IMG/VR virus record: IMGVR_UViG_3300028800_002457
Location: 1-33,678 of that record
DNA from: a virus
Direction: 5' to 3' (one strand)
Length of the DNA: 33,678 bases
Shown: positions 11,150-29,623 of the stretch, one piece after another
Position numbering within the stretch: the first letter of the stretch is position 1
How the letters are laid out: every line of letters starts with the position of its first letter
Notes under the pieces: generated by a model
What the model was told of the DNA's origin: nothing
Databases searched by the model: none
Seen by the model: only the letters and a program-made list of their open reading frames with translations
Program-made: the position numbers and the translations under genes

Positions 11150-11394
11150 ATGGAATTCTTACAAACCATGAAACGCCACGCCAGGGCGGCGATGCATCAT
11201 CTGCTGGACCGGCCAGTCCGGTGGATGCGCCAGAGCCTGGCACTGTGCGCCCGACACAGCCAACCCTTGCGAGTGACGCTTGCGTTACGGGGGATCGGGC
11301 AACCTTCAAAACTTTTCCTGACGATTGGATTTCGCGCCACCTGTGGTGGCACGACCTCGGCCACGGCGGTTACATGAAACCGAAATTTTTCTGA
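11146..11394 (+). CDS. Possible small protein upstream of the lipase-like gene
   Basis: The frame encodes 82 residues from TTG at 11146. Its first half is Pro/Ala/Ser-rich and the end reads W-W-H-D-L-G-H-G-G-Y-M-K-P. Its TGA overlaps the ATG of the lipase-like gene (TGATG), which favours this frame. The competing frame 11150-11377 has an ATG directly after the upstream stop but an Arg- and His-rich composition typical of chance reading. The start is uncertain. Confidence 0.4.
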   Translation: MNGILTNHETPRQGGDASSAGPASPVDAPEPGTVRPTQPTLASDACVTGDRATFKTFPDDWISRHLWWHDLGHGGYMKPKFF

Positions 11395-12200
11395 TGAATC
11401 TCGCCGCCACATCATTTGACCTGGACAACGCCCGCTGCTGCGCCGCGCTGGCCGATGCGGCTTATGGCGATGACACACAGATCATTCCCGGCGCACTCTC
11501 CATCAAACTGATCCAGGGCGAGCAAACAGATACGCAAGTGCTGGTCGTGGAATTCCCTGAATACATCTCCGTCAATTTTTGCGGCACTAAAAATCTCAAG
11601 GATGCGCTCACGGATGTTAAGATCAAGCGCATGCCCATCGCGGGCGGTTCCGCGCATGTCGGTTTTGTCCAAGCCATCCTGGAGGCGTTCCCCAAACTCG
11701 AAGCGTATCTCGCCACGCTTTCCACGCTCAAGCCGCTCATCATCACCGGCCACAGCCTGGGAGGCGCATTGGCCGCGCTCTTCGCCTACCTCTGGGAATT
11801 GCGAAATCGAAAATATAAGCCCGGCGCACTGGTGCCTCAATCCATCGCTTTCGTCTATACCTTCGGCAAGCCGCGCGTCTTTGGTCGGCTCGCGCAATTT
11901 TCTTACAACGCTGCGTTGCGGTCGCGCACCTTCCGCGTCGTGAACTGCGGCGACCCGGTTCCGCTGCTGCCCGGACTGCTCATCGGTTATCTGCATGAAG
12001 GGCAAGAAGCGTTTTTAAGCGACACACCTGTTTTGCATAAAGTGGAACTGCGCATCAATCCCTCGCGCCTCTGGGAAATCTTCAACGACTCGTGGGATTT
12101 ATACGACGACCTCAAGGACCGCGACTGGTCCGCGCTCCTGGCTTCCGAACATCACATCGAATTTTACCGGACCCAACTTGCGCTGGCATGCGCTGCTTGA
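11394..12200 (+). CDS. Class-3 lipase-like alpha/beta hydrolase
   Basis: The product is 268 residues from the ATG at 11394. Fungal-type class-3 lipases split ester bonds of lipids. The nucleophile elbow G-H-S-L-G-G-A has S121. An acidic residue fits D187 in V-N-C-G-D-P-V-P, and a His fits H253 or H254 in E-H-H-I-E-F-Y, giving a complete Ser-Asp-His triad. An N-F-C-G-T-K-N segment near residues 61-67 matches the family's oxyanion-hole strand (usually F-R-G-T), and H-V-G-F about 25 residues later matches the family's H-x-G-F. No signal peptide is seen, so a holin-like route would be needed to reach an envelope substrate. Its position suggests an envelope-degrading lysis role; this is inference. 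Confidence 0.82.
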   Translation: MNLAATSFDLDNARCCAALADAAYGDDTQIIPGALSIKLIQGEQTDTQVLVVEFPEYISVNFCGTKNLKDALTDVKIKRMPIAGGSAHVGFVQAILEAFPKLEAYLATLSTLKPLIITGHSLGGALAALFAYLWELRNRKYKPGALVPQSIAFVYTFGKPRVFGRLAQFSYNAALRSRTFRVVNCGDPVPLLPGLLIGYLHEGQEAFLSDTPVLHKVELRINPSRLWEIFNDSWDLYDDLKDRDWSALLASEHHIEFYRTQLALACAA

Positions 12201-18089: not shown

Positions 18090-18424
18090 AAAAACCGTTC
18101 TACAACGATTCCGGTTCACTGACCGCCGTGCGGCGCGAGTTGCGCAAGGCGAAATGCGCGGACGTGGTCGCCGTCCAGATCTCCCTGAAGAACTTCTGGA
18201 AGCCCTGGGTGTTGTGGCGCGCCATCGTTTTCGTTTTCAAGAATCAGCGCCGTCAAAAAGTCCTGGGCACGATGGTCCGCGCCAAGATGGGTTTCGCCTG
18301 GCGAAACGCCATGCCCAAAAAACATCAACGTCAACTCGGCATGCTGCCGCCAGTGGGCCAACAGATGAGCGACCAGATCAACAACCAGCTTTTCAGGGAA
18401 GCTATTGGAGCAAAAAAATCATGA
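18086..18424 (+). CDS. Small basic hypothetical head-module protein
   Basis: The product is 112 residues, strongly basic, with an aromatic/hydrophobic core around 36-52 (N-F-W-K-P-W-V-L-W-R-A-I-V-F-V-F) and a Lys/Arg-rich middle. Overlaps at both ends indicate coupling between portal-MuF and the prohead protease. A nucleic-acid- or scaffold-binding role is conceivable from charge alone. Confidence 0.6.
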   Translation: MKKPFYNDSGSLTAVRRELRKAKCADVVAVQISLKNFWKPWVLWRAIVFVFKNQRRQKVLGTMVRAKMGFAWRNAMPKKHQRQLGMLPPVGQQMSDQINNQLFREAIGAKKS

Positions 18425-19107
18425 AAGCCATACGCCGCACCATTCATCCGGAAGTCCGCATTGTGGACGAGAAACGGTTCATCGCCGAATTTGTCGCCAG
18501 CACGGAGACGATTGATTCCTACAACGAAGTCATCCGCGCCGATGGCTGGCTGTTCAGCCGCGTGCAAAAGAATTTTCCCCTGGTCAATTCCCACGACTAC
18601 TCCGATATCCGCAACACGCTCGGCAAGATCATCGATTACAGCGTGAAGGGCGGCAAGTTGATGAACACGGCGCAATACGCCTGTGAGGTGCAGGAGAATC
18701 AATTGGCCATGTTCGCCTGGAAGATGCTCGTCGCCAAATTTCTTCCCGCTGTCAGCGTCGGCTTTGCGCCGATCACTTATGCCTGCCGTTGGGATTCTGA
18801 TAAAACCAAATACGACGCGCAGTGCTCGGAGCTGCAACTGTCGCGCGACTGCAATCCCAACGTGATTTATATCACCCAGGAGCAGCTCGAACTTTCGCAA
18901 TGTGTCATCGGCGCGAATCCCGACGCCGTGGCCAAAGCTTACAAGGCCGGTGCCATCACGGATGCCGACCTTGATTTCCTTTCCACCGAACAAGCCAAAA
19001 GCAAAATCGCCGACTCGACCGATAGTCCCGCTGCTGTCGAGAAGGCCCGCCAGCGGGTGCGCACGGCATTGTTGATGGAGTTCACCACCAAAATAAAACG
19101 TCTGTAA
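18421..19107 (+). CDS. Prohead protease (HK97 / S78 family)
   Basis: The product is 228 residues from the ATG at 18421, overlapping the previous stop. S78 proteases cut the delta domain of the capsid protein during maturation. The expected pattern is present: an N-terminal V-A-S-T-E-T-I-D-S-Y-N segment, a catalytic His in V-N-S-H-D-Y (H58), L-G-K-I about 10 residues later, and the catalytic-Ser segment F-L-P-A-V-S-V-G-F (S112). Length fits the family. It lies directly before the major capsid gene, its substrate. The last 60 residues are a charged helix. Confidence 0.82.
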   Translation: MKAIRRTIHPEVRIVDEKRFIAEFVASTETIDSYNEVIRADGWLFSRVQKNFPLVNSHDYSDIRNTLGKIIDYSVKGGKLMNTAQYACEVQENQLAMFAWKMLVAKFLPAVSVGFAPITYACRWDSDKTKYDAQCSELQLSRDCNPNVIYITQEQLELSQCVIGANPDAVAKAYKAGAITDADLDFLSTEQAKSKIADSTDSPAAVEKARQRVRTALLMEFTTKIKRL

Positions 19108-19118
19108 AAATACCGTTT

Positions 19119-20621
19119 ATGAATCCGAAAAATCGAAATCTGAAATTGTGCGCGGTGCCCGTGCTGATGCTCGCCGCGCTGCCGCTGCTCATCATGGTCC
19201 TGGCCGCCGCGATGTTCCTCGCTATTCCCGGCAAAGCCATGTGCGCCCTCACTCCGCTGGTCCTGCCGGAAAAAGGCAAAGCCCTGGATGAATCCGAATT
19301 CCAGCGCACGCTGATGACTGGCGTCAATGACCTGATGGATGAGCAGGGCAAGTTCAAGTCCGCCCAGCAAAAAGTCCTCGATGACCTGGACCGTTCCGAC
19401 AAGGAAGTGAAAAAGGCCATGGAGGAACTCACTAAAGTGAAGAATACCACGAACAGCACCTTCGAGGACTTCATGAAGAAGATGGAGAAGGTGCAGAAAC
19501 AGGTCGCGCTCAATGCACGGTCCAGTTGGCGCAGCCCGGAAGAGCGTGTGTTGGCTGATGAAGAAGTTCGTTTCGGTTTGAATGCAATGGCCCGCTGCGT
19601 CCTCGCCACAAAGTTCCCTGGCGAATTCAAGCTCGATGATGCTTTCAAAAAGTATGTCGAAGAGAACAATTCCAAAACGAAAGCGCTGACCGGCGTCGAC
19701 GCCGGTCTCGGCCAGGCCACTGTGCCCACCGATACCTTCAATCAGATCTACGATCTGCTTTTGGAATACGGTGATTACACCACGCTCGGCGTGCAACGTG
19801 TCGGTTCACGTTTGAATGTGCTGCCCATCGCCACCGCCCGCCCGCAGTTCTACTGGATCGGTTCCCAATCAAGTCTGGCAGAGGGCTCGAATATCACGGC
19901 TGGCGCATTCACCGGCTCGCAAGTACTCAACGTCATCAACACGCTCGCCGTGCTCATGTATGTCGCCCGCGAGCTGCTCGCCGATTCCACCGTGGATCTC
20001 GCGCCCTACGTTCTGAACCAAATGGTCCAGAGCGCCAACTGGGGTCTCGATACCGCCGCGTTCATCGGCAACGGCAACGCCGACACCACCAACGCCGGTT
20101 ACATCGGCATCTTCAACGCCGCGCTCGCCAATACTAACATGGCTTACAGCGCTGCCGCTGGCCGTACCACGGTCTCCGCGACGAAGCTGGATGACTGGGT
20201 GAATGCCACCCTCACCGTTTCTCCCCAGGTGCTGAATCGTAAACCGAAATGGTGGATGCATTCCCAGATGATCGCGCGCGCCGCGCTCATCCGTGATAAC
20301 AACGGACGCCCCATCTTCCAGACCTGGCAGGAAGTGCCGAATCCTGGCAGCATCGGCAGCATTCTCGGCGCTCCCGTGCATCCTACGGCCATCGCGCCGA
20401 CCACGGATGGCGCAAGCCAGCCCATCGCCGTCTTCGGCGAAGGTGCGGCCCAATCCGTCCTCATCCGCCAGGACCTCGAACTCGCGACGAGCGACGACAT
20501 CGGCTTCCCGCAAAACCTGCGCGCCTTTCGTGCACTGGTCCGTGCCGGTGTGAAAATGAAAACGCAGGCCGCGAGCACCACGCTCAAGCCCTTCGCCGTG
20601 CTGTCCACTGCGGCAGCCTAA
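19119..20621 (+). CDS. Major capsid protein (HK97 fold) with N-terminal hydrophobic segment
   Basis: The product is 500 residues. Residues about 60-140 are a charged coiled-coil delta domain (scaffold). From about 185 on, the HK97-type core is seen: P-T-D-T-F-N-Q-I-Y, A-E-G-S-N-I-T, L-M-Y-V-A-R-E-L-L-A-D, A-F-I-G-N-G and N-L-R-A-F-R-A-L-V-R-A-G. The protein is the shell subunit, cleaved by the upstream protease. Oddly, residues 10-37 are a strongly hydrophobic stretch (L-M-L-A-A-L-P-L-L-I-M-V-L-A-A-A) like a membrane helix or signal peptide. Its first codons contain a heptamer-like repeat. An ATG at 19239 after this segment would give a conventional product of 460 residues, but I see no Shine-Dalgarno sequence deciding between them. 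Confidence 0.88.
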   Translation: MNPKNRNLKLCAVPVLMLAALPLLIMVLAAAMFLAIPGKAMCALTPLVLPEKGKALDESEFQRTLMTGVNDLMDEQGKFKSAQQKVLDDLDRSDKEVKKAMEELTKVKNTTNSTFEDFMKKMEKVQKQVALNARSSWRSPEERVLADEEVRFGLNAMARCVLATKFPGEFKLDDAFKKYVEENNSKTKALTGVDAGLGQATVPTDTFNQIYDLLLEYGDYTTLGVQRVGSRLNVLPIATARPQFYWIGSQSSLAEGSNITAGAFTGSQVLNVINTLAVLMYVARELLADSTVDLAPYVLNQMVQSANWGLDTAAFIGNGNADTTNAGYIGIFNAALANTNMAYSAAAGRTTVSATKLDDWVNATLTVSPQVLNRKPKWWMHSQMIARAALIRDNNGRPIFQTWQEVPNPGSIGSILGAPVHPTAIAPTTDGASQPIAVFGEGAAQSVLIRQDLELATSDDIGFPQNLRAFRALVRAGVKMKTQAASTTLKPFAVLSTAAA

Positions 20622-20659
20622 CCGATGGTTTAACCGAAACAATTCATCGAATAAAAGCC

Positions 20660-21691
20660 ATGAAATCTGAAACCGAACTTAAGAACCTGCCGCCCGAAGA
20701 GCGCCAGAAAATCGTCATCGAACTGCAACAGGTCAAGACCGGCGACAAAGCATATGCCAACGCCAAAGCCATCATCGACCTGATCGAAAATTCCAAGGGG
20801 TACGAAAAACCGGACAAGCTTCGCGTGAAAAACATCTCCGGCCATGCCGTGACCGTGGATGATGTTGTCATCGCTCCAGACGCGACGGGGAGTGTCTACA
20901 CCTGGCAATACCACGCGCTCGCCCGTTTCCTGCAACCGGAAGCTGCTTATGAGAATCATTTGTCCGAGCTTTCTGAGAAACAGCAAGCACTGGACAAGAA
21001 GACTGATGCCGCCAACCAGCCGCAGACCGTCGATCTCGGCAAGGTGGTGCCGGAAGCGATTGCCAAAGGCTTTGAAAGCCTGAAGACAAAAGCCGCCGCG
21101 CTCATCCTGCTCGCCTTCCTGTTGTGCTTCGCCACCACGGCCAAAGCGCAGAATCAAACAACCGTGTTTGGTTCGCCTGCGGGAGCATGGACGGTAGGGG
21201 TCGCTGGTTTGATTCCCGGCTCAACCAATAGCTGGGCGGGAACCAACAATTCCTTCAGCGCCACGGTGCTCACCACCAACTTCATTAATCAACCCTCGGT
21301 CACGTATAGCAACGGTGTAGCCTACTTCACCACGAACAGTGCGGTTGGCAGCATCCTCACTAATACGCCCGGCTTGGTTTACATGGGTGATTGGGACGCC
21401 TTCGGTATTACCTGGTCATTCCAGACGGTCGGCGGCGGCACCCAGCCTTGCACGAATACCTGGGACATCTCCGATGACCTCGCGACCTGGCAAACCAACT
21501 GGATGGTCTTGTACGGACCAGGCGGCGCCATTGGCGCCCCCACTACCGGCAGCACCAACGTCACCGGATTCCATCATAATTGGATTCGCCTGGGACAATG
21601 GTACATGGCTACTAACGTGGCTTCCGCCGCGAACCAATTCACGAATACCGTCATGGAAGTCACCCGTAAACACTTCCGCAGCGGCCAATAA
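20660..21691 (+). CDS. Capsid-adjacent protein with an internal signal-peptide-like segment
   Basis: The product is 343 residues in two unlike parts. Residues 1-140 are polar and cytosolic in character, with a beta segment L-R-V-K-N-I-S-G-H-A-V-T-V-D-D-V. Residues 141-163 form a textbook Sec signal peptide (K-T-K, then A-A-L-I-L-L-A-F-L-L-C-F, then A-K-A/Q). Residues 164-343 are an Asn/Thr/Ser-rich beta domain typical of secreted proteins. No ATG, GTG or TTG with a good ribosome site separates the parts; a CTG lies at residue 141. Position directly after the capsid gene suggests a head decoration protein. A fusion of two genes is the alternative. Confidence 0.65.
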   Translation: MKSETELKNLPPEERQKIVIELQQVKTGDKAYANAKAIIDLIENSKGYEKPDKLRVKNISGHAVTVDDVVIAPDATGSVYTWQYHALARFLQPEAAYENHLSELSEKQQALDKKTDAANQPQTVDLGKVVPEAIAKGFESLKTKAAALILLAFLLCFATTAKAQNQTTVFGSPAGAWTVGVAGLIPGSTNSWAGTNNSFSATVLTTNFINQPSVTYSNGVAYFTTNSAVGSILTNTPGLVYMGDWDAFGITWSFQTVGGGTQPCTNTWDISDDLATWQTNWMVLYGPGGAIGAPTTGSTNVTGFHHNWIRLGQWYMATNVASAANQFTNTVMEVTRKHFRSGQ

Positions 21692-21717
21692 ACCGCATTT
21701 AAAAATCGCTTAACGCT

Positions 21718-21876
21718 ATGCAAAAACAACCGCCAGCGGATCGGATGATCAAATCACAGGACACTGTGACGCGCGCCCGCCCGCTGGCGGTTTCTCCTAA
21801 AACCGTCGAACGCCCGAAGGCCAGGACAGAAGATGTCCTTCCCAAATCGGCAATCGTAAATCGTAAATTGATATGA
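21718..21876 (+). CDS. Possible 52-residue peptide before the cold-shock gene
   Basis: The frame from the ATG at 21718 ends in an ATGA overlap with the cold-shock gene, as expected of a coupled leader gene. The product is polar and basic with no recognised motif, and its last codons are a heptamer repeat. The DNA also forms a long inverted repeat. The region may thus be a structured leader rather than a gene. Confidence 0.35.
   Translation: MQKQPPADRMIKSQDTVTRARPLAVSPKTVERPKARTEDVLPKSAIVNRKLI
21728..21792 (+). promoter_or_regulatory. Stem-loop in the leader of the cold-shock gene
   Basis: A perfect 12-bp inverted repeat pairs AACCGCCAGCGG (21728-21739) with CCGCTGGCGGTT (21781-21792). Its loop holds an inner hairpin CACAG-GACA-CTGTG (21757-21770). 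It lies 80 bp before the cold-shock ATG. An RNA switch, attenuator or imperfect terminator are all possible; no T-run directly follows. Confidence 0.5.
21844..21871. repeat. Degenerate heptamer repeat (AAATCGT family)
   Basis: Four 7-bp units, AAATCGG, CAATCGT, AAATCGT and AAATTGA, run up to one base before the ATG of the cold-shock gene. This is the same family as 7604-7638 (reverse strand) and 25934-25961. Confidence 0.85.
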
Positions 21877-22076
21877 CCAGCACAGTTAAACGATGGATCG
21901 AAGATCGGGGCTACGGCTTCATCTACAATCCTACGGCGGTCGGCAAGGACATCTTTGTCCATCACCGCAACATTAAAGGCACCGGCCACAAAACCTTGCG
22001 TGAAGGACATCGCGTCGAATTTGAAACCATCGAAACCGCTGAAGGCTTTGAGGCGTTGAACGTCCGCCAACCCTGA
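21873..22076 (+). CDS. Cold-shock-domain protein
   Basis: The product is 67 residues, the full length of a CspA-type protein. Both RNA-binding motifs are present: RNP1 as R-G-Y-G-F-I and RNP2 as D-I-F-V-H-H. The family's V-K-x-W start and L-x-E-G-x-x-V-x-F-E segment also match. Such proteins bind single-stranded nucleic acid and melt RNA structure. It is unusual in that it sits between the capsid genes and the neck genes, read with the late operon. An autogenous link to the stem-loop upstream or a role in late mRNA translation is inferred. Typical hosts carry several such genes, so recent acquisition is likely. Confidence 0.92.
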   Translation: MTSTVKRWIEDRGYGFIYNPTAVGKDIFVHHRNIKGTGHKTLREGHRVEFETIETAEGFEALNVRQP

Positions 22077-22079
22077 TCT

Positions 22080-22724
22080 ATGAACTGTGGCCTTTCCAAT
22101 CTCACCGCGCTGAAGAATCAAATCCTCGCGCCCGGTCTCGCGGTCGCGACCGACTTCGACAGCGATATCCAGATGGTCGGCCTCGCGGTCGCAGGTGCGT
22201 TCGACTCCAACTGCAATCGCAAATTCGCTTTCCTCGCTGATGAACAGGAAACCGTCACCGGCGACCGCTCGCATTGGTACGTCAATCGTTTCCCGTTCAT
22301 CTCGTTTTCCAAGATCGAGCTTCAATTTTTCCGCACCGATGCCTGGACCGATATCTCCGGCCAGCCCGTGAGCCAGAATCCATCCACCGGCCTCGTGCAT
22401 TTCGGTTTCACCCTGGGCCGCTCGCCGCTCATGGTGCGCCTCACTTACAGCGGCGGCTATTTCTTTGAAACGCTGGAGGCAGCAGATCCCGGTTATCCCT
22501 CTGTAAAACCAGATGGCGCAACCGCCTTGCCCACCGACCTCCAAGCCATGTTCTTCCTGCAATGCAAGCGCGTGTGGGAATCCCTGGACAAGATCGGCGA
22601 CAAGATCTCCGAGGTGGGACCGGGCGAAAAGGGCGGGCGTTTTGAACTTGGCATCGGCGGACTCGAACTCGCGCCCATCATAAAAAACTTTTTATCAAAC
22701 AAAATCCGTTACCAGGTCACATGA
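22080..22724 (+). CDS. Head-tail connector-like protein
   Basis: The product is 214 residues. The N-terminal 60 residues are helical and carry A-V-A-G-A-F-D-S-N-C-N-R-K-F, similar to the helix/C-x-R-x-F motif in gp6-like and phiE125 gp8-like adaptor proteins. The remainder is beta-rich. Order (capsid, connector, gpG-like, terminator-like) fits the neck module. The upstream stop is only 3 bp away, and its own stop overlaps the next ATG. Confidence 0.55.
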   Translation: MNCGLSNLTALKNQILAPGLAVATDFDSDIQMVGLAVAGAFDSNCNRKFAFLADEQETVTGDRSHWYVNRFPFISFSKIELQFFRTDAWTDISGQPVSQNPSTGLVHFGFTLGRSPLMVRLTYSGGYFFETLEAADPGYPSVKPDGATALPTDLQAMFFLQCKRVWESLDKIGDKISEVGPGEKGGRFELGIGGLELAPIIKNFLSNKIRYQVT

Positions 22725-23293
22725 GCGAATCATTCTCCATCAAAGTTTCCGGCGATGCGCTCCAGGTGATGGAACGCATCAAAGACCGCGCTGGGCTTAT
22801 GCACGCCCTCGCCGGTGCGGTGGATAAACAAAATCAATTTTCTGTTGGGCGCATCGTGCAGGACCGCATGAATGGCGTCGGGCCGTTTCCTCCGGAGCAA
22901 CATCGCCTCGGCTTCCGCACCGGTTTGCTCAAAGGTTCGTTGCACGCCTCCGCCGCCCAGGTCTCCGGCGATGGCATACGGAGCGCCATCGGCTCCAATG
23001 TCAGATACGCGGCCATCCACGAATTTGGCGGGGTCATCCATCATCCGCGCCGAGTCGGCTTTGTGCGTTTGCGCACGGATGCCAAAGGCAACCAACTGCG
23101 CCGGGGCAATCTCGCCATCTTTGCCAGCCGCGCCCACAAACGGTTTGAATCCGTTCGCTACCAGGCCGGCGCTTACGATGTGACCATGCCGGAACGTTCG
23201 CCCGTGCGCACCGGCATTGCCGACCGCGCAGCCGACTACTCCCGTGCCCTCGGCACCGCCATAATCAACTTTTGGACCAAGGAAAATTCATGA
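22721..23293 (+). CDS. Virion morphogenesis protein (Mu gpG / HK97 gp10-like)
   Basis: The product is 190 residues. The motif R-Y-A-A-I-H-E-F-G-G (about 91-100) is the signature of this neck or tail-completion family. It is preceded by S-V-G-R-I-V-Q-D-R-M, and R-T-G-L-L-K-G-S-L is typical of the family's central region. Such proteins complete the head-tail joint. ATGA overlaps link it to the genes on both sides. Confidence 0.72.
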   Translation: MSESFSIKVSGDALQVMERIKDRAGLMHALAGAVDKQNQFSVGRIVQDRMNGVGPFPPEQHRLGFRTGLLKGSLHASAAQVSGDGIRSAIGSNVRYAAIHEFGGVIHHPRRVGFVRLRTDAKGNQLRRGNLAIFASRAHKRFESVRYQAGAYDVTMPERSPVRTGIADRAADYSRALGTAIINFWTKENS

Positions 23294-24009
23294 GCGCGCC
23301 CGATACCAAATTCCTCCGCGCCTTCCAGGATCACACGGAGATGAAACTCAACAGCGAGTCGCTGTTGCAATACGTCGCCATTGTCTCCCAGCGCAAACAA
23401 GTGAAGCTGGATGCCACCAAGCGCGTTGCCCCGCACATCGCCGGGCGCAACGGCAAAGTCGGCGCCGGCTTGCTCATTGGCCTGCCCGTCATCGATCCTG
23501 CCGATAACGACGTGCCCGGCGCGCAGATGGTGGTGAAGCTGCCCATCGATATCCTCGTCAAAGACGATCTCAGCCTGGTGTTGAGCAATGGCGCGGGCGT
23601 CAGCGCGGAAGAGGTCCTCGTCATCACCTGGCAATTGCTCCATCAGTTCCTGAACAAATATCTTGGCACCGGCAATTGGACCGTGGCTGGCGCAGACCCT
23701 ATCGAGGACCAGCGCGGCGCGTATGGTTATCAGCTCGTCCTGGAAGTTCGTTTCGGTTCCGATCAACCGGATAAAACTCCCACGCCCACATTTTCACTCG
23801 CGGGCGGCAACGTCACCCTCACGCCGTTTCCGGGCAGCACCGCCTATTACACGCTCGATGGCTCGTTTCCCGCGAACAGCGCCACCATCAATCCAGCCAC
23901 GCACCTTTACGCCGCGCCCTTCGCCGTCACCAGCGGCCAGACCGTCCTCTGGGCCGCCTACCAGGCTAACTACATCAGCAGCGATGTCTGGGCCGAAACC
24001 ATCCCTTGA
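23290..24009 (+). CDS. Tail-terminator-like protein with C-terminal chitobiase-type Ig-like domain
   Basis: The product is 239 residues from the ATG at 23290. The N-terminal 165 residues are alpha/beta and in the position of a tail terminator. Residues about 168-239 read T-P-T-F-S, V-T-L-T-P-F-P-G-S-T-A-Y-Y-T-L-D-G-S-F-P, L-Y-A-A-P-F-A-V-T-S-G-Q-T-V and A-A-Y-Q-A-N-Y-I-S-S-D-V. This is the pattern of the small beta-sandwich found at the C-terminus of chitobiase and other glycan-binding enzymes (CHB_HEX_C type). On virions such Ig-like domains usually decorate the surface and bind carbohydrate weakly. The N-terminal assignment is by position only. Confidence 0.6.
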   Translation: MSAPDTKFLRAFQDHTEMKLNSESLLQYVAIVSQRKQVKLDATKRVAPHIAGRNGKVGAGLLIGLPVIDPADNDVPGAQMVVKLPIDILVKDDLSLVLSNGAGVSAEEVLVITWQLLHQFLNKYLGTGNWTVAGADPIEDQRGAYGYQLVLEVRFGSDQPDKTPTPTFSLAGGNVTLTPFPGSTAYYTLDGSFPANSATINPATHLYAAPFAVTSGQTVLWAAYQANYISSDVWAETIP

Positions 24010-24011
24010 AC

Positions 24012-24039
24012 AATAACCAAAAACCAAATCACCAAATGA
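24012..24039. repeat. Degenerate heptamer repeat (AAAAACC family)
   Basis: Three to four 7-bp units, AATAACC, AAAAACC, AAATCAC and CAAATGA, lead directly into the ATG at 24036. No separate Shine-Dalgarno sequence is visible. Confidence 0.7.
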
Positions 24040-24590
24040 AAATCATCCGTCACACAAAAGCCTCGCTCACCAACCTCGACAATGTCACCCGCGATCACCA
24101 TCGCGTGTTTTTGTTCGGATTCCAGATCGCTGGATGGCGAACAAAACACAAGAGCCGCCCGTCTGATTGGATGCGTAGGCAGGTGCGGCTCGCACCTTTG
24201 CTCCTTTGCGTCTTTGCGTTGAACGTCTCGACCTCCCGCGCTGGCCTGTTCTCCTTCTTTGGCAACCTGCCCACCGTCAAAGCCAGTTCATCCACCAATT
24301 CACCGCTCGTGCAGGTCGGCACGTTCACTTTTAACGGTGCCACACTCTTCCTCTCGAATGGTGGCACGGCGATCCCTACCAACCTCACCGCGATCCCGAT
24401 GCTCACGTTCGATGCCACCGGCACAAACTTTTGGCTGTTCGCGCAGCAGGTTCATCCGTCGCAATCCATCGCCACCAATAACGAAGGTTTTGTGATCACC
24501 AACTTCACCGTCCCGGTTTATGGCGCGCTCCGCCTCATCAACACCACCAACGTGGATCAGACCGCAGGCGCTTCCGCCAACATCAACTGA
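24036..24590 (+). CDS. Asn/Thr-rich tail-module protein with signal-peptide-like segment
   Basis: The product is 184 residues from the ATG at 24036. Residues 46-69 look like a signal peptide (M-R-R-Q-V-R-L-A-P-L-L-L-C-V-F-A-L, then S-R-A/G). An ATG exactly at its start (24171) could give a 139-residue exported protein. The remainder is an Asn/Thr/Pro-rich beta domain. The hydrophobic core is encoded by an octamer repeat at 24195-24218, so the segment may be repeat-derived. Its position between the terminator-like gene and the tail tube suggests a tail or exposed structural protein. The function is unknown. Confidence 0.55.
   Translation: MKIIRHTKASLTNLDNVTRDHHRVFLFGFQIAGWRTKHKSRPSDWMRRQVRLAPLLLCVFALNVSTSRAGLFSFFGNLPTVKASSSTNSPLVQVGTFTFNGATLFLSNGGTAIPTNLTAIPMLTFDATGTNFWLFAQQVHPSQSIATNNEGFVITNFTVPVYGALRLINTTNVDQTAGASANIN
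24181..24218. repeat. Hairpin plus octamer repeat inside a coding sequence
   Basis: AGGTGCG-GCT-CGCACCT (24181-24197) is a perfect hairpin. It overlaps three 8-bp units, CCTTTGCT, CCTTTGCG and TCTTTGCG (24195-24218). Tandem TTTGCG-type units are familiar as dispersed non-coding repeats in bacterial genomes. Here they encode the hydrophobic core of a signal-like segment. Confidence 0.75.
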
Positions 24591-24598
24591 ATAAAATT

Positions 24599-25537
24599 AT
24601 GCAACGAAGCAACTTGATCATCGGCCCCGGTTACGCCACGCGTAACGGCTTTAACTTCCGCTACGACGACGGCGGCGCGCGCGTCAAGTTCATGAAAAAA
24701 TTCCGCGAAGTTTCCGCTGAGGAATTTGGCCGCTTCGATTCCACCCAATACGACCGCCAGATCGAGATCAGCATCAAGCTCTGGAGCGGTTACGAGAATC
24801 TCGCCGCGCTTTTCCCGTCGTCGATGCTCACGCCCACCATCGGCGGTCGTATCATGCCCAGCGGCTCGGATGTGCCCTTCACGTTCAACGCCCAGGACGG
24901 CGGGCGCGTCGTTGTGGCCAATACCGCCATCACCGCCTTCACCAATCTCACGCTAAGCACCGAGAAAAATCTGTGGAGCGCTGATCTCAAATCCATCGGC
25001 CTGCTCAAGAGCGGCGCGTTGCCCACCGATGCCAACGCGTATTTCACCGAATCCACCGGCAACAGTTACGCCGCGCCGTCGTTCACCAAATCCAACTTCC
25101 TCGCCCCTGCGCCCGTCGTCTCCTGGGGCGCTCGCGCTGGCTTCACCTCCATGGCCATGCGCAAAGGCCTCGCCATCGATGGCAAGTTCGAGATCAATTG
25201 GGAACCCGGCTTTGTGGATGGTTATGGCACGCTCGATGGCGTCATTGATGGCTTCGAGGCCAGCGCCAAAGGCCAGCCCATCGGTCCCACGCTCGCGCAA
25301 TACCTCAATGGCCTCGGCTACGGCACCGCGTTCGGCGCGCTGCAATCCACCGCCAACACCGACGACCTCGTTATCACCGCCAGCGGCCTGGCCATCACCT
25401 TGCCTCAATCCTTCATCGAAGACGCTGGCGACGGCATCGCGTATGCCCGCAAAACCCAGCGCCTCCCGGAAACCACCTGGCGCACCACCGTCCCGTTCAG
25501 CGCCGGCGCGCCCGCCGCCCGCGCCGCTATTGGATAA
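24599..25537 (+). CDS. Major tail tube protein
   Basis: The product is 312 residues, beta-rich. It shows F-N-F-R-Y-D-D-G-G near the start and a middle P-V-V-S-W-G-A-R-A-G-F-T-S-M-A-M-R-K-G. This is followed by F-E-I-N-W-E-P-G-F-V-D-G-Y-G-T-L-D-G, a pattern seen in long siphovirus tube subunits. Hexameric rings of this protein form the tail tube. No sheath gene is next to it, so the tail is non-contractile. Assignment is by composition, size and place in the operon. Confidence 0.62.
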   Translation: MQRSNLIIGPGYATRNGFNFRYDDGGARVKFMKKFREVSAEEFGRFDSTQYDRQIEISIKLWSGYENLAALFPSSMLTPTIGGRIMPSGSDVPFTFNAQDGGRVVVANTAITAFTNLTLSTEKNLWSADLKSIGLLKSGALPTDANAYFTESTGNSYAAPSFTKSNFLAPAPVVSWGARAGFTSMAMRKGLAIDGKFEINWEPGFVDGYGTLDGVIDGFEASAKGQPIGPTLAQYLNGLGYGTAFGALQSTANTDDLVITASGLAITLPQSFIEDAGDGIAYARKTQRLPETTWRTTVPFSAGAPAARAAIG

Positions 25538-25568
25538 CCTGACACCTGACACACAAAAAACCTGACAC
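25538..25568. repeat. Degenerate heptamer repeat (CCTGACA family)
   Basis: CCTGACA occurs three times (25538, 25545 and 25561), the first two in tandem, in the 41-bp gap between the tail-tube stop and the next ATG. It is the only longer gap in this part of the operon. Confidence 0.85.
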
Positions 25569-25578
25569 TAAAATTAAT

Positions 25579-25935
25579 ATGAAAATCGCCCTCATCGCCT
25601 CATCCGTCGCCGCCCTCGCCGCGCAACTCGCGCCCAAAGGCGTCACCCCGCCCACCGCCGACGACATCATTGCCGCCGTGCCGTCCGACAAAGCCGATCT
25701 GCTCACCGGCCTGGAAGCCGATGCCAGGACCATCAACGGCCTCCGCGACAAATACGCCCCGCTCGTCGCCGGTGCGCCACACCTGGTCAACACCATCGGC
25801 GGCCTCCGCACCTCCGTGAATTGTGCCGAACAATACGCCGAGAGCGTTTTGAAAACCGCCATGCACAAACTCATCACGCCAGCGCCGGAAATGCCCGCTG
25901 CACCGGTCGCCGCGAAAACTCCCAAGGCCGCGTAA
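25579..25935 (+). CDS. Small Ala/Pro-rich tail-module protein
   Basis: The product is 118 residues, mostly helical, with an Ala/Pro/Lys-rich tail. The first 20 residues (K-I-A-L-I-A-S-S-V-A-A-L-A-A-Q-L-A) are mildly hydrophobic and might be read as a weak signal peptide. It occupies the place of a tail-assembly chaperone (after the tube gene). No overlapping second frame or slippery site was seen. Confidence 0.55.
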   Translation: MKIALIASSVAALAAQLAPKGVTPPTADDIIAAVPSDKADLLTGLEADARTINGLRDKYAPLVAGAPHLVNTIGGLRTSVNCAEQYAESVLKTAMHKLITPAPEMPAAPVAAKTPKAA

Positions 25936-25961
25936 ATCAAATATCGTAAATCGTAAATCCA
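25934..25961. repeat. Degenerate heptamer repeat (AAATCGT family)
   Basis: Four 7-bp units, AAATCAA, ATATCGT, AAATCGT and AAATCCA, fill the whole gap between a stop codon (25933-25935) and the next ATG (25963). They share the AAATCGT unit with 21858-21864. Confidence 0.85.
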
Positions 25962-25962
25962 G

Positions 25963-26403
25963 ATGGAGATCACCGCTTATGACACCGCGAAAGTGCCGAC
26001 CATCCTCGGCACCGTCGCCGTGGACCGCGCCGATCAGATCTGGGCCAAGGCGCTCAAGTCCACCTCGCGCCGGTCGCTCGAACCCGTGTTCTGCTACGAA
26101 TCACCCGCGCCCACCATCGTGGACAATGTCGGCACGAGCGAAAACTTTTCCTTTCGCGCCGACCGTTCCTTTGGCAATTCAGCCATCTCGCCCGGCCAGG
26201 CCCTCGCGCTCATCGCTAAACATCGCGCCGCCGTCCCGCGTCTCTGCGCCGCCGTTAAATTCGTCCAGACCGGCACCACCATCTGGCTCGTCAATTGCGG
26301 AATCACCGGCGTTGATGTCGCCGAAAAGAACGGCGCTTACATCGGTTTTGACTACACCGTCATCGGCGGCAGTTGGTCCCTCATCAACCCCTTAACCACA
26401 TGA
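25963..26403 (+). CDS. Tail-module protein of unknown function
   Basis: The product is 146 residues, alpha/beta, with two Cys residues flanking the centre and a C-terminal beta hairpin (G-F-D-Y-T-V-I-G-G-S-W). There is no signal peptide. It overlaps the next gene by ATGA. It may be a second tail-assembly or tail-completion protein, inferred from position only. Confidence 0.6.
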   Translation: MEITAYDTAKVPTILGTVAVDRADQIWAKALKSTSRRSLEPVFCYESPAPTIVDNVGTSENFSFRADRSFGNSAISPGQALALIAKHRAAVPRLCAAVKFVQTGTTIWLVNCGITGVDVAEKNGAYIGFDYTVIGGSWSLINPLTT

Positions 26404-27257
26404 GCGTCGCACGCACAGCCAGATTCGCCGTCGAAGAACGCACCTGGGTGGCCGCCCAATCGGCCTTTGACGGTTCCTCCTCCGTCAAACATCCCGCTGG
26501 CAATCCGCTGCGCCTCGATGTCTTCCTGCTCACCGGTGGCAATCCCATCACCGACGTTTCTATCACTGCCGTCTCGGCCTCCATCCTCGCCAAAGATTTC
26601 ACCGGCGATTCGTTTGCCGATGCCGTCAGCGCGAGTTTTGATGTCACGGTTAATACCACAACCTGGCAGGCGGGCACCGCTCAGAGTGCCACCATTAATT
26701 TTACCGGCGCACAATTGGAATTGCCCATCGCTGACGGCCAGGAATCCCAGGACTACGTCATCGTCCTTTATTTCAGCGATACCACTTTTGGCTATATCAC
26801 CCTCACCATCGTCCGCGATGGCGTGCCGACTGGAGAGTTGCCGGTCCAGAGCGGCAACATTGTGCCCGGGGGCGCGACCTACGATGGCTCCGGCCACTAC
26901 ACCCTCACCGTCATCGCGAGCACTTACTATATCATCGGCTTCGGCACACACGATGCCTCCGTGGATAACGGCAGCGACAACTACACCGATTCCTTGCACG
27001 TCTTTCAAGCCGCAGGCTCAACCGTTTTGCTGCACGGTACCGCCAGCGCCACCGTGACGGCCGTAGTGCGGCCCAATCCCGTCGCCACTACCGCGCTCGC
27101 CCAGCAGATCGCCTCGCAAGGTTCTGTGACCATCTATGACCATCTGTGGGTGAAATCAAAAGACAGCGCGCTCTATTACAAAGTGCGTATCAGCGATGCG
27201 GGCGGATTTCCCGCGCTCAATGTTGATGAAACCTCTGGAACTGCGACCCCATCATGA
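26400..27257 (+). CDS. Beta-rich tail or fibre-associated protein
   Basis: The product is 285 residues from the ATG at 26400. It is rich in Thr, Ser, Val and Gly. The first 140 residues look like an Ig-like or BppU-type sandwich (L-R-L-D-V-F-L-L-T-G-G-N-P-I-T-D-V). The rest is further beta segments, ending in a W-V-K-S-K-D-S-A-L-Y-Y-K-V-R strand pair. Overlaps at both ends, including with the fibre gene, suggest a fibre-attachment or baseplate-periphery role. No family is named with confidence. Confidence 0.6.
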   Translation: MSVARTARFAVEERTWVAAQSAFDGSSSVKHPAGNPLRLDVFLLTGGNPITDVSITAVSASILAKDFTGDSFADAVSASFDVTVNTTTWQAGTAQSATINFTGAQLELPIADGQESQDYVIVLYFSDTTFGYITLTIVRDGVPTGELPVQSGNIVPGGATYDGSGHYTLTVIASTYYIIGFGTHDASVDNGSDNYTDSLHVFQAAGSTVLLHGTASATVTAVVRPNPVATTALAQQIASQGSVTIYDHLWVKSKDSALYYKVRISDAGGFPALNVDETSGTATPS

Positions 27258-29623
27258 CCATGAAACGATTCTCCCTCTTTGCGATCCTTGTGTTCTTTGT
27301 GGCCAATGCTTCCGGCATCAGCGGCCTAATGATCGGCGATGACCGCGTGGCCTTGCAGACCAACATCACGTTTAAGGGCGTGACCACCTTCACCAACCTG
27401 ACGCCGGGTCAGCGCGTCGTTCTCAGCAACGGCACCGTGCAGGCGTCTTCACTCGTGGCCACGGGCACCGTGAGCGCTGCCGTCATCAGCGGCACCGCCT
27501 TCACCGGCAGCGCCAGCGGCCTAGCCCATTACATCACCACCAATCTCGATGGGACCATCGATCCCGCGCAAGCGCCCGCCCTCGCGAAAACCTACGAAGA
27601 CACCCGCACTGTCACCGACGCGAATTGCAACGTCACCAATTTTATGGTTGGCGGTTCGATCATCTTCGCATCCACCACCAATGCGGTCCATGTGTCGGCT
27701 GCCGGCGAACAGAATGCCATCGGCAATTTTGCCACCAACGGCATGACCGGCGTGGTGACCAATCTCATCACAAACATTTCCATCCAAAAAATCTCCAGCC
27801 TTTATTATTTCGTGCAAACCAATGGCGCGCTCCTGTATTCCAGCCCCACTCTCTTCTCTGCCAGTTGGACTCAGATCACCGGCGCGTTGCCCACGCCGAT
27901 CACCACGCCCGGAAACATCTTTGATTCCAGCACCATCGCGACCATCGGGGCTACGCTCGGAACGATCCTACTCGGCTTTACGCCATACACGCCTGCCCAG
28001 GTGGACGCCGCCAATAGCGCAATGTCCAATTCCATAATAAATCTATCGACCAATTATGTGCCCTCTCGTGCGGTCGCCTCGGCGAGCTTTACCGGATACG
28101 CGCTTGAGGAGACCAATGGCCCGACGCATCCAGGGCCGAACCCGTTGGGGCTGCTCAATCCCTATCTACTGGATTCGCATACAAACCTGGCGGCGCACCT
28201 TGATATTTTTGGGGTATTGATATTTGAGCAGAATCCGACGCGCCACTCGGACGATGCGGCATTTCTGACCGTTAATGACTTATCGAGCACTTCATTTTAT
28301 GCGCCAATTGACGGGAGTGGTTTGGCAAACGTGGTAAAAGAGGAATACATCCACGGAGCTGGAACGCTCTCTATCAACGGAGGGACATTTATTATTTCCC
28401 CCAATACCGACCCATTAGCGAAGCAATATGCCTTGGATGCGGAAGAGGCGATACTAGGTCAAGGAGCGATTTCAGTTGATTCATCCATTGTTCTCTTTGA
28501 GCAGCAAGACCAGACGAATTGCTTCGCCTATGCCGCCGAAGGTGCAGTAGCAGGTGGTGCGTTTGTTGGTTCTCAATCCTGCTACTCGTCTGCCGCTGAT
28601 GGCGGGCTGGCTTCTGGCAACTTCGACGGCTCCTCTTTTTGTTCAGCGACGGCAGGTGAAGGCGGTTCGATTGCAGCCGCACAGTTCAGCGATTCATCGA
28701 ACTGCACGGTGTTCGCTCAGGCTTCCAGCTTTGCCGGTTTGGACGCCGGGACGGGAGCAACAAACATACACCTGAACGGTTCAGGGTTTATTTACGGCAG
28801 CTTGCCCGGAGCGTCTAACGTGACGGTGACTGGTGTGAATTCGATTCTCTTAGTCCAGGATACCACGAATTATACCGCCACATTTACCAGGGCATTTGGA
28901 ATAATTTACAAAGGAATTTTTTCCGGCTTCGACGGCACAAAATTTATCGGCAACGCTTCCGGCCTCACCAACCTCAACGCCTCATCGCTCGCCAGCGGCA
29001 CCATGCCAATGGACAGACTTAACCCCAACATCCAGACCAACGCCATTTCTTTTCTCACCAGCACCAACGGCTATTTTTACCCCTCTGCGACGAACAACGG
29101 CGTCATCACCTTTGCGTTTCAAATCACCAACACGCCCGGTTCCACCATTAGTAGCACAATCCCTCAGTCCACGCTGCCCGTCTTCCCTTACGGCAACCTG
29201 CGCTTTTCGCTCGGCACCCTGGCAACCTTCGGCGGGAGCAGCTCCTATGAACGCCTGACTAATTTCAACCAGTTCGCCTCCAACAATTTCACTGGCGATC
29301 TCGGCCAGGGCACCATGACCAATACCATCGCCGGGTTTTATACAGAAAACTCCACCATAGTTGTCGAGAGCGGCAACGATGCCAACCCCATTTATGTGGA
29401 AGGCTTTTTCACCAATGGCGTTTTAGCTGGCGTGGAGATTCAAAATAATTTTGCCAACCAATTCGCGGGCGGCACCGTAGACCTTTCCTTCAACCAAACC
29501 GGCCAGACATTTTTTCTCCCGGCCGGGACGCGGTGCGAATGGAAAATAAAACAGACGGGCGGCGGCGGCCCGGAAAGCTACGATCTCAAATCCGCGAGCG
29601 TCCGCCTTCAATACAAACCGTGA
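27254..29623 (+). CDS. Tail-fibre-like protein with N-terminal signal peptide
   Basis: The product is 789 residues. Residues 1-22 are a classical signal peptide (M-K-R-F-S-L-F-A-I-L-V-F-F-V-A-N-A-S-G). Two copies of the stalk motif seen in bacterial and phage fibres are present: G-S-A-S-G-L-A-H-Y-I-T-T-N-L near residue 80 and G-N-A-S-G-L-T-N-L-N-A-S-S-L-A-S-G-T near 568. Between them, about residues 415-495, Cys-spaced repeats of 20-21 residues (A-x-G-G-x-x-A-G-x-F) look like a beta-helix. The C-terminus is a beta domain ending in a Gly-rich loop. It probably recognises the host surface. A signal peptide on a cytoplasmically assembled fibre is unexpected. Confidence 0.72.
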   Translation: MTMKRFSLFAILVFFVANASGISGLMIGDDRVALQTNITFKGVTTFTNLTPGQRVVLSNGTVQASSLVATGTVSAAVISGTAFTGSASGLAHYITTNLDGTIDPAQAPALAKTYEDTRTVTDANCNVTNFMVGGSIIFASTTNAVHVSAAGEQNAIGNFATNGMTGVVTNLITNISIQKISSLYYFVQTNGALLYSSPTLFSASWTQITGALPTPITTPGNIFDSSTIATIGATLGTILLGFTPYTPAQVDAANSAMSNSIINLSTNYVPSRAVASASFTGYALEETNGPTHPGPNPLGLLNPYLLDSHTNLAAHLDIFGVLIFEQNPTRHSDDAAFLTVNDLSSTSFYAPIDGSGLANVVKEEYIHGAGTLSINGGTFIISPNTDPLAKQYALDAEEAILGQGAISVDSSIVLFEQQDQTNCFAYAAEGAVAGGAFVGSQSCYSSAADGGLASGNFDGSSFCSATAGEGGSIAAAQFSDSSNCTVFAQASSFAGLDAGTGATNIHLNGSGFIYGSLPGASNVTVTGVNSILLVQDTTNYTATFTRAFGIIYKGIFSGFDGTKFIGNASGLTNLNASSLASGTMPMDRLNPNIQTNAISFLTSTNGYFYPSATNNGVITFAFQITNTPGSTISSTIPQSTLPVFPYGNLRFSLGTLATFGGSSSYERLTNFNQFASNNFTGDLGQGTMTNTIAGFYTENSTIVVESGNDANPIYVEGFFTNGVLAGVEIQNNFANQFAGGTVDLSFNQTGQTFFLPAGTRCEWKIKQTGGGGPESYDLKSASVRLQYKP

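Follow-up and report, generated by a model that had tools for sequence, protein, structure and literature searches.

Conserved membrane signals on the capsid, adjoining and fibre-like proteins of a family of Verrucomicrobia siphoviruses suggest particle assembly at the cell membrane

In the textbook view tailed phages assemble in the cytoplasm, and the membrane takes part only as a platform (T4) or in lysis. Virion proteins with signal peptides are known from inoviruses, whose coat proteins are inserted in the inner membrane before assembly, but these belong to an unrelated virus realm, have no icosahedral head and are extruded without lysis. The subject of the present analysis is a whole viral contig of 33.7 kb (IMG/VR record IMGVR_UViG_3300028800_002457, positions 1 to 33,678, called the window below), in the late operon of which the major capsid protein (MCP), the protein encoded directly after it (post-capsid protein), a 139-residue protein and a fibre-like protein carry segments of the export or membrane-anchor type. 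These signals are conserved in relatives and suggest that the particles are built at the cell membrane and not free in the cytoplasm. Among the closest described systems, T4 (portal gp20, gp40, YidC) starts head assembly on the inner membrane, as is proposed here; however, its membrane-bound initiator is the portal and not the capsid protein, and no export signals have been described on T4 capsid or decoration proteins (PMC9958956). Lambda gpFI (Packaging_FI) and the YqbF-like/DUF7210 proteins are, like the post-capsid protein, encoded directly after the MCP and combine a helical part with a small alpha/beta domain, but sequence similarity is absent and gpFI is soluble, without a signal or a jelly-roll. 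XepA of PBSX is exported, phage-encoded and has a beta-sandwich similar to that of the post-capsid protein (VIA Z 8.3 over 104 residues, 10% identity, for a common fold with which unrelated rows tie); it is reported as part of a Gram-positive prophage's lytic cassette (PMC6834076), whereas the post-capsid gene stands directly after the MCP gene. Phage P8625 is likewise a Verrucomicrobia siphovirus of about 33 kb, but it is reported to lack signal peptides altogether (PMC4642752).

The post-capsid protein (20660-21691) has an internal signal, the position and type of which are kept in all homologues. The gene immediately following the MCP encodes, in 20 lineages, an N-terminal domain of ~90 residues (N-domain), a hydrophobic core usually preceded by Lys, an AxA-like site and a jelly-roll domain. 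In two further lineages (L034, and L055 with its near-copies) the jelly-roll is encoded on its own, behind a classical N-terminal signal, MKKLLLSAFCAFSAVIPAYS↓Q and MRIIKQVFGVALVVTSLIGTAQA↓Q respectively (the arrow marks the cleavage site); both were confirmed by hidden Markov models at 1.9e-17 and 9e-16, with shuffled sequences no better than 0.01. Across the cleavage region of the 22 lineages, position -1 is Ala in 21 and Ser in one, position -3 is A, V, L, T, G or S, and position +1 is Gln in 17; the sites were placed by eye, which biases the small-residue counts in favour of the motif and affects the Gln at +1 less strongly. After the MCP of the distant L040 and L046, a short N-domain-like protein is found alone. 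Because the jelly-roll occurs alone in the former pair and the N-domain-like protein alone in the latter, the post-capsid gene can be regarded as a fusion of separable modules, and it is concluded that two proteins, belonging to opposite sides of the membrane, have been joined by way of the signal. After the major tail protein there is another pair of this kind, alone with a signal in L007 (16145) and fused behind a soluble domain in L002 (15604) and L039 (15490). An internal start just before the post-capsid signal was considered and rejected: in L037 the 60 codons ahead of the core offer only ATG53, hence the fusion is real in this relative.

The jelly-rolls themselves have diverged to about 20-40% identity, and the cleavage site is nonetheless found in 22/22 lineages. 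This bears on the suggestion of the first-pass annotation that host-derived secreted domains had been recruited to the virion, and on the further idea that their signal peptides were captured with them and are now vestigial. The suggestion is right in part: the AxA↓Q style of signal resembles that of one exported host protein (L044), a GH27-like C-terminus is present in L038 and a neighbouring gene has an Fn3_assoc domain. Vestigial signals, however, are contradicted by a site kept throughout such divergence, and a capture with signals that are now vestigial is held to be quite improbable. The modelled jelly-roll (pLDDT about 77 over the better part) resembles sandwiches of the C1q/TNF/CBM type and reaches VIA Z 8.7 to VP2 of infectious bursal disease virus, a weak fold comparison; no match of the predicted fold is strong enough for a family claim. 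A scan with the stand-alone jelly-roll of L034 returned only its self-match, and profile searches against PDB sequences with the post-capsid protein and the N-domain gave no meaningful match.

Besides a helical part, the N-domain model (pLDDT 83) has a small alpha/beta part, which was matched to the C-domain of lambda gpFI with VIA Z 4.5 (1.5 Å over 41 residues), a weak result with which GINS domains tie, and to YqbF with VIA Z 5.2; DUF7210 phage proteins were among the viral fold matches, and the stand-alone protein of L040 matches DUF7210 below the cut-off. Comparison of the N-domain with Packaging_FI by hhalign gave a probability of 0.1, and the fused protein has no Pfam match; sequence comparison therefore gives no support for membership in the gpFI family. 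Wherever the fused protein occurs, its gene comes directly after the MCP, as lambda FI follows the MCP gene E. In lambda, gpFI sits on the gpE lattice of the prohead and has been proposed to aid terminase docking (PMC4856287; PMC7889075). Judged by modelled fold and gene position, the N-domain may work in a similar way.

The MCPs of L002, L003, L004, L006, L007 and L037 share with that of the window a K-rich N-terminus, a hydrophobic stretch with a PVLALAALPLL core and, shortly after it, a Cys; longer, two- or three-pass-like versions are present in other relatives (L020, L025, L027, L038); the N-terminus is always basic, and the hydrophobic segment always lies before the coiled-coil scaffold region. 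The dN/dS ratio of the anchor is below 1 in 27/27 pairs and above that of the MCP core, as expected for a segment held by its hydrophobicity and not by its exact sequence. On the MCP tree the anchor is present in 15/25 lineages (the window and 14 others), including both deep outgroups (L040, L046) and the early branches L032 and L033. Parsimony requires six changes, four of them forced by well-supported branches; an anchor in the ancestral MCP followed by repeated loss is the simplest reading, although the tree method cannot itself distinguish gains from losses. Outside the 25-row tree, the MCP of L063 has the anchor and those of L055, L058 and L065 do not. Small residues do occur towards the end of the stretch, at positions that shift from one relative to the next, and no consistent cleavage site emerges; because of this drift and of the multi-pass forms, an anchor is more likely than a cleaved signal. 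The second short stretch with the conserved Cys (Table 1) is possibly the return half of a hairpin. HK97-fold MCPs of the Phage_capsid family usually have no anchor before the scaffold; here it is an added feature, which is no ground for leaving this MCP out of the family. Several relatives have an ATG or GTG near the conserved Cys from which translation might restart past the stretch, but as a general bypass of the anchor this is ruled out, since L003 has only GTG codons within the end of the stretch and L037 has none. A lipoprotein at the Cys was rejected as well, since the residues at -1 (M, T, S, L) are not those of a lipobox. The anchor-less MCPs (L026, L017, L022, L028, L039) often start with a short motif like MKRILLIADAAEG; in the fused exported protein that follows the major tail protein (L002:15604, L039:15490), this motif opens the soluble part.

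In HK97-type phages the scaffold coiled coil faces the interior of the prohead. It might be supposed, therefore, that the hydrophobic segments serve oligomerisation or form a hydrophobic scaffold core in the prohead and cross no membrane: the MCP anchor precedes exactly this coiled coil and has no consistent cleavage site. As an account of the MCP alone this is more plausible than for the other three proteins. Conserved AxA↓Q sites, stand-alone forms with classical signal peptides, basic residues before each core and the two- or three-pass-like MCP N-termini argue against it. For the whole set of proteins it is considered improbable. Several hydrophobic anchors per genome, the multi-pass-like MCPs included, could instead mean that a membrane-anchored MCP encloses or carries a membrane patch together with other anchored proteins. 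To our knowledge, however, internal lipid has not been described in any tailed phage of the HK97 fold, and 10/25 lineages lack the anchor; such a lipid-containing particle is considered very improbable.

The signals were predicted by rule and by eye from hydropathy, charge, cleavage motif and conservation. A basic n-region, a hydrophobic core and small residues at -3/-1 are present in the post-capsid protein (22 lineages), the 139-residue protein and the fibre-like protein. Export of these proteins is well supported on the level of sequence, and the Sec pathway would presumably carry it out. From the MCP up to and including the gene before the tape measure, one fixed rule finds signal-peptide-like segments in 28/87 genes of ten relatives versus 0/49 in control phages (lambda, HK97, D3, Javan191 and an Oscillospirales phage); the Fisher p of 8.5e-7 is descriptive only, as homologous genes are not independent, and the rule was written after the relatives had been seen. 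The 28 include two weak matches (window 25579 and L036:13122) which are not counted as signals, and the rule misses the post-capsid signal of L037 and the signal at window 24171. Together with the reported absence of signal peptides from the cultured Verrucomicrobia phage P8625 (PMC4642752), the empty controls indicate that the trait is not general to tailed phages or to Verrucomicrobia phages.

The 139-residue protein had been read as the product of 24036-24590 with a segment at residues 46-69. The signal stands, but the start was placed too early: alignment with L028:8480-8911 (36%, 1e-12) moves it to ATG 24171, giving MRRQVRLAPLLLCVFALNVSTSRA↓GLF, whereby the seemingly internal segment becomes an ordinary N-terminal signal peptide. 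The fibre-like protein begins with MTMKRFSLFAILVFFVANA, and in 10/10 tabulated relatives the product of the gene just ahead of the tape measure carries a signal at its N-terminus, a signal together with an anchor, or an internal signal (L025); the fibre signals of L022 and L038 were called partly by eye, their core lying under the hydropathy threshold. In several members the signal precedes a shared, conserved domain, and the C-termini beyond it vary, as is usual in tail fibres. The exported-type protein before the tape measure in L038 (17886-20279) ends in a GH27 alpha-galactosidase-like domain (Melibiase_C 2.4e-6, PDB 1uas 2.7e-5), beyond which Pfam and PHROGs searches of the fibre-like and distal tail proteins gave nothing. 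The fibre-like proteins L037:16371, L002:16671 and L039:16359 have an extra membrane span ahead of the signal, with the mature domain unchanged. The last gene of the L039 prophage encodes a signal and then IGTTPNDGTGDTLPVAFTKLN; its matches in the phage collection are not significant (E 5-8), many cyanophage baseplate or tail-fibre proteins being among them, which is no more than suggestive.

The observation in the first-pass annotation that four virion-type proteins have hydrophobic, signal-like segments is thus real, and stronger than could be known from a single sequence: all four are present, and relatives show that they do not arise by chance. They are not, however, of one kind. At least two kinds can be told apart, a scaffold-side anchor in the MCP and export signals in the other three proteins.

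Of the interpretations offered at that stage, membrane-associated assembly has the best support, with an MCP anchor that is probably ancestral and a conserved signal behind a gpFI-like domain; it is unproven. It is proposed, tentatively and at somewhat less than even odds, that head assembly and packaging are tethered to the inner membrane and that the jelly-roll and fibre domains are exported to the periplasm. The MCP anchor would recruit precursors to the inner membrane, much as the portal of T4 nucleates proheads there; later the prohead protease would cut the scaffold, anchor included, from the shell. The gpFI-like N-domain would stay cytoplasmic and hold proheads near the membrane for packaging, while its jelly-roll partner crosses the membrane, perhaps to be released by cleavage. 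In the periplasm the exported jelly-roll and fibre-like proteins would wait, to join heads and tails once the membrane is breached. This proposal is supported by the post-capsid signal in every lineage and the separable modules it joins, by an MCP anchor present in outgroups and early branches with a basic N-terminus and dN/dS below 1, and by the gpFI-like fold and gene position of the N-domain, the T4 precedent and the empty controls. The extensive internal membrane of a subdivision 3 member (PMC2647929) is counted in its favour. A bolder formulation is possible but doubtful: an HK97-fold tailed phage with Sec-coupled head morphogenesis, in which capsid subunits are membrane-anchored, a packaging-chaperone-like prohead-binding domain is held by a signal and appendages are added from the periplasm, with a lipid-keeping particle as the extreme case.

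Several points weigh against membrane-coupled assembly. Virion membership and localisation of the exported proteins are inferred, as is the tethering; if many subunits are anchored, a closed shell would come to enclose their anchors, and this topological problem might be avoided if the scaffold is cleaved before closure, if only a minority of subunits is anchored or if lipid is enclosed. The anchor is dispensable, as it is lacking in ten of the 25 MCP lineages. The gpFI match is weak, with unrelated GINS domains tying, and unseen by sequence. Jelly-rolls without an N-domain in L034 and L055 mean that tethering through the N-domain is not universal, and a cleaved signal would part the N-domain from the jelly-roll and weaken any tether.

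The main alternative, a serious one if on balance unlikely, takes up another reading of the first-pass annotation: only the MCP is structural, and the jelly-roll, 139-residue and fibre-like proteins are exported during infection to act at the host envelope, for example in exclusion of other phages, surface adhesion or polysaccharide digestion, their genes merely riding in the late operon. The signal peptidase sites look genuine, one relative has a GH27-like C-terminus on an exported protein, and late operons are known to contain "moron" genes whose products have membrane segments and are not virion parts, e.g. HK97 gp15. What speaks for virion proteins instead is the constant position directly after the MCP in every member, the fusion of the jelly-roll to a gpFI-like domain of a head gene in 20/22 lineages and the fibre layout of a conserved N-part and variable C-part; moreover, envelope action leaves the MCP anchor unexplained.

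If membrane-coupled assembly is true, a lineage with membrane signals on its capsid, adjoining and fibre-like proteins would represent a second assembly route, and the place of head and fibre assembly becomes directly testable. Repeated natural loss of the MCP anchor supplies matched pairs, e.g. L002 with the anchor and its sister L018 without. A signal peptide is easily taken as evidence that a protein is not part of the virion, a conclusion against which this family would be a caution. A search of the literature, in a collection with few subscription journals, for tailed-phage capsid proteins with a signal peptide or a membrane segment at the N-terminus gave nothing on point.

Table 1. Coordinates in the window of the features discussed
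Feature	Coordinates	Strand	Basis
Prohead protease-like gene	18421..19107	+	directly before MCP; weak PHROG head maturation protease and major-head matches
MCP, HK97 fold with N-terminal scaffold region	19119..20621	+	Pfam Phage_capsid PF05065 3.4e-26 (cut-off 24.2 bits); PHROG major head protein 5.4e-30
MCP N-terminal hydrophobic anchor, residues 11-37	19149..19229	+	conserved in six near relatives; maximum KD19 2.75
Second short MCP hydrophobic stretch with conserved Cys, MCALTPLVLP	19239..19268	+	MCP N-terminus alignments
N-domain of post-capsid protein, residues 1-93, gpFI-like by fold and position	20660..20938	+	26-63% identity across homologues
Internal signal with signal-peptidase-I-type site, LKTKAAALILLAFLLCFATTAKA↓QNQ, residues 141-163	21080..21148	+	like signal in 22/22 lineages
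Jelly-roll domain of post-capsid protein (predicted export)	21149..21688	+	stand-alone behind signal peptide in L034, L055
139-residue protein (predicted export), N-terminal signal 24171-24242	24171..24590	+	homologue L028:8480-8911, like place and architecture
Fibre-like protein before tape measure, N-terminal signal 27254-27310 or 27316	27254..29623	+	signal rule; position in relatives

The late operon on the + strand comprises first terminase, portal with a Mu-F domain, protease-like gene, MCP, post-capsid protein and cold-shock-domain protein, and then an adaptor-position gene, neck, 23272-24009, 24171-24590, a major tail protein candidate, small genes, the fibre-like protein and a tape-measure-position gene; genes without a family match are named by position alone. 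The likely true start of the protease-like gene is ATG 18421, from conservation of MKAIRRTIHPEV. A signal-like N-terminus of the large terminase in the lists of open reading frames was dropped as a wrong-frame extension of the true gene.

Relatives were found by MCP scans of viral contigs and of Verrucomicrobia genomes, subdivision 3 included. Among them are relatives with 65-77% identity to the window's MCP, next to which protease-like and portal genes lie. The MCP was found in 3/388 Verrucomicrobiota genomes, hence prophages of this family are rare among those sampled. In INPHARED all MCP matches are below 30% identity, with no relative of the post-capsid protein or of the fibre domain. A scan with the L040 MCP gave no match. 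L039 is an apparent prophage in a bacterial contig, with phage genes at ~5.4-40.0 kb followed by cellular genes, which we take from their sequence to be lpxC and a transhydrogenase. At least one member is therefore temperate and the hosts are Verrucomicrobia; the viruses are temperate siphoviruses of Verrucomicrobia, at least partly of subdivision 3.

Some neighbouring genes can be added. The 118-residue product of 25579-25935 (+) starts with MKIALIASSVAALAAQLAP, a weak fifth signal-like start, and L007:16615 aligns with it from residue 42 on only. Between the post-capsid protein and the adaptor-position gene, 21873-22076 (+) encodes a 67-residue cold-shock-domain protein (Pfam CSD 8.8e-17). 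The gene in tail-terminator-like position, 23272-24009 (+), has at its C-terminal end an Fn3_assoc/chitobiase C-terminal domain. Upstream (5') of the terminase lies a lipase/esterase-like gene, 11325-12200 (+; PHROG esterase/lipase 2.4e-17), which possibly belongs to lysis; a lipase-like sequence with a GHSLGG motif is found at the matching place in several relatives.

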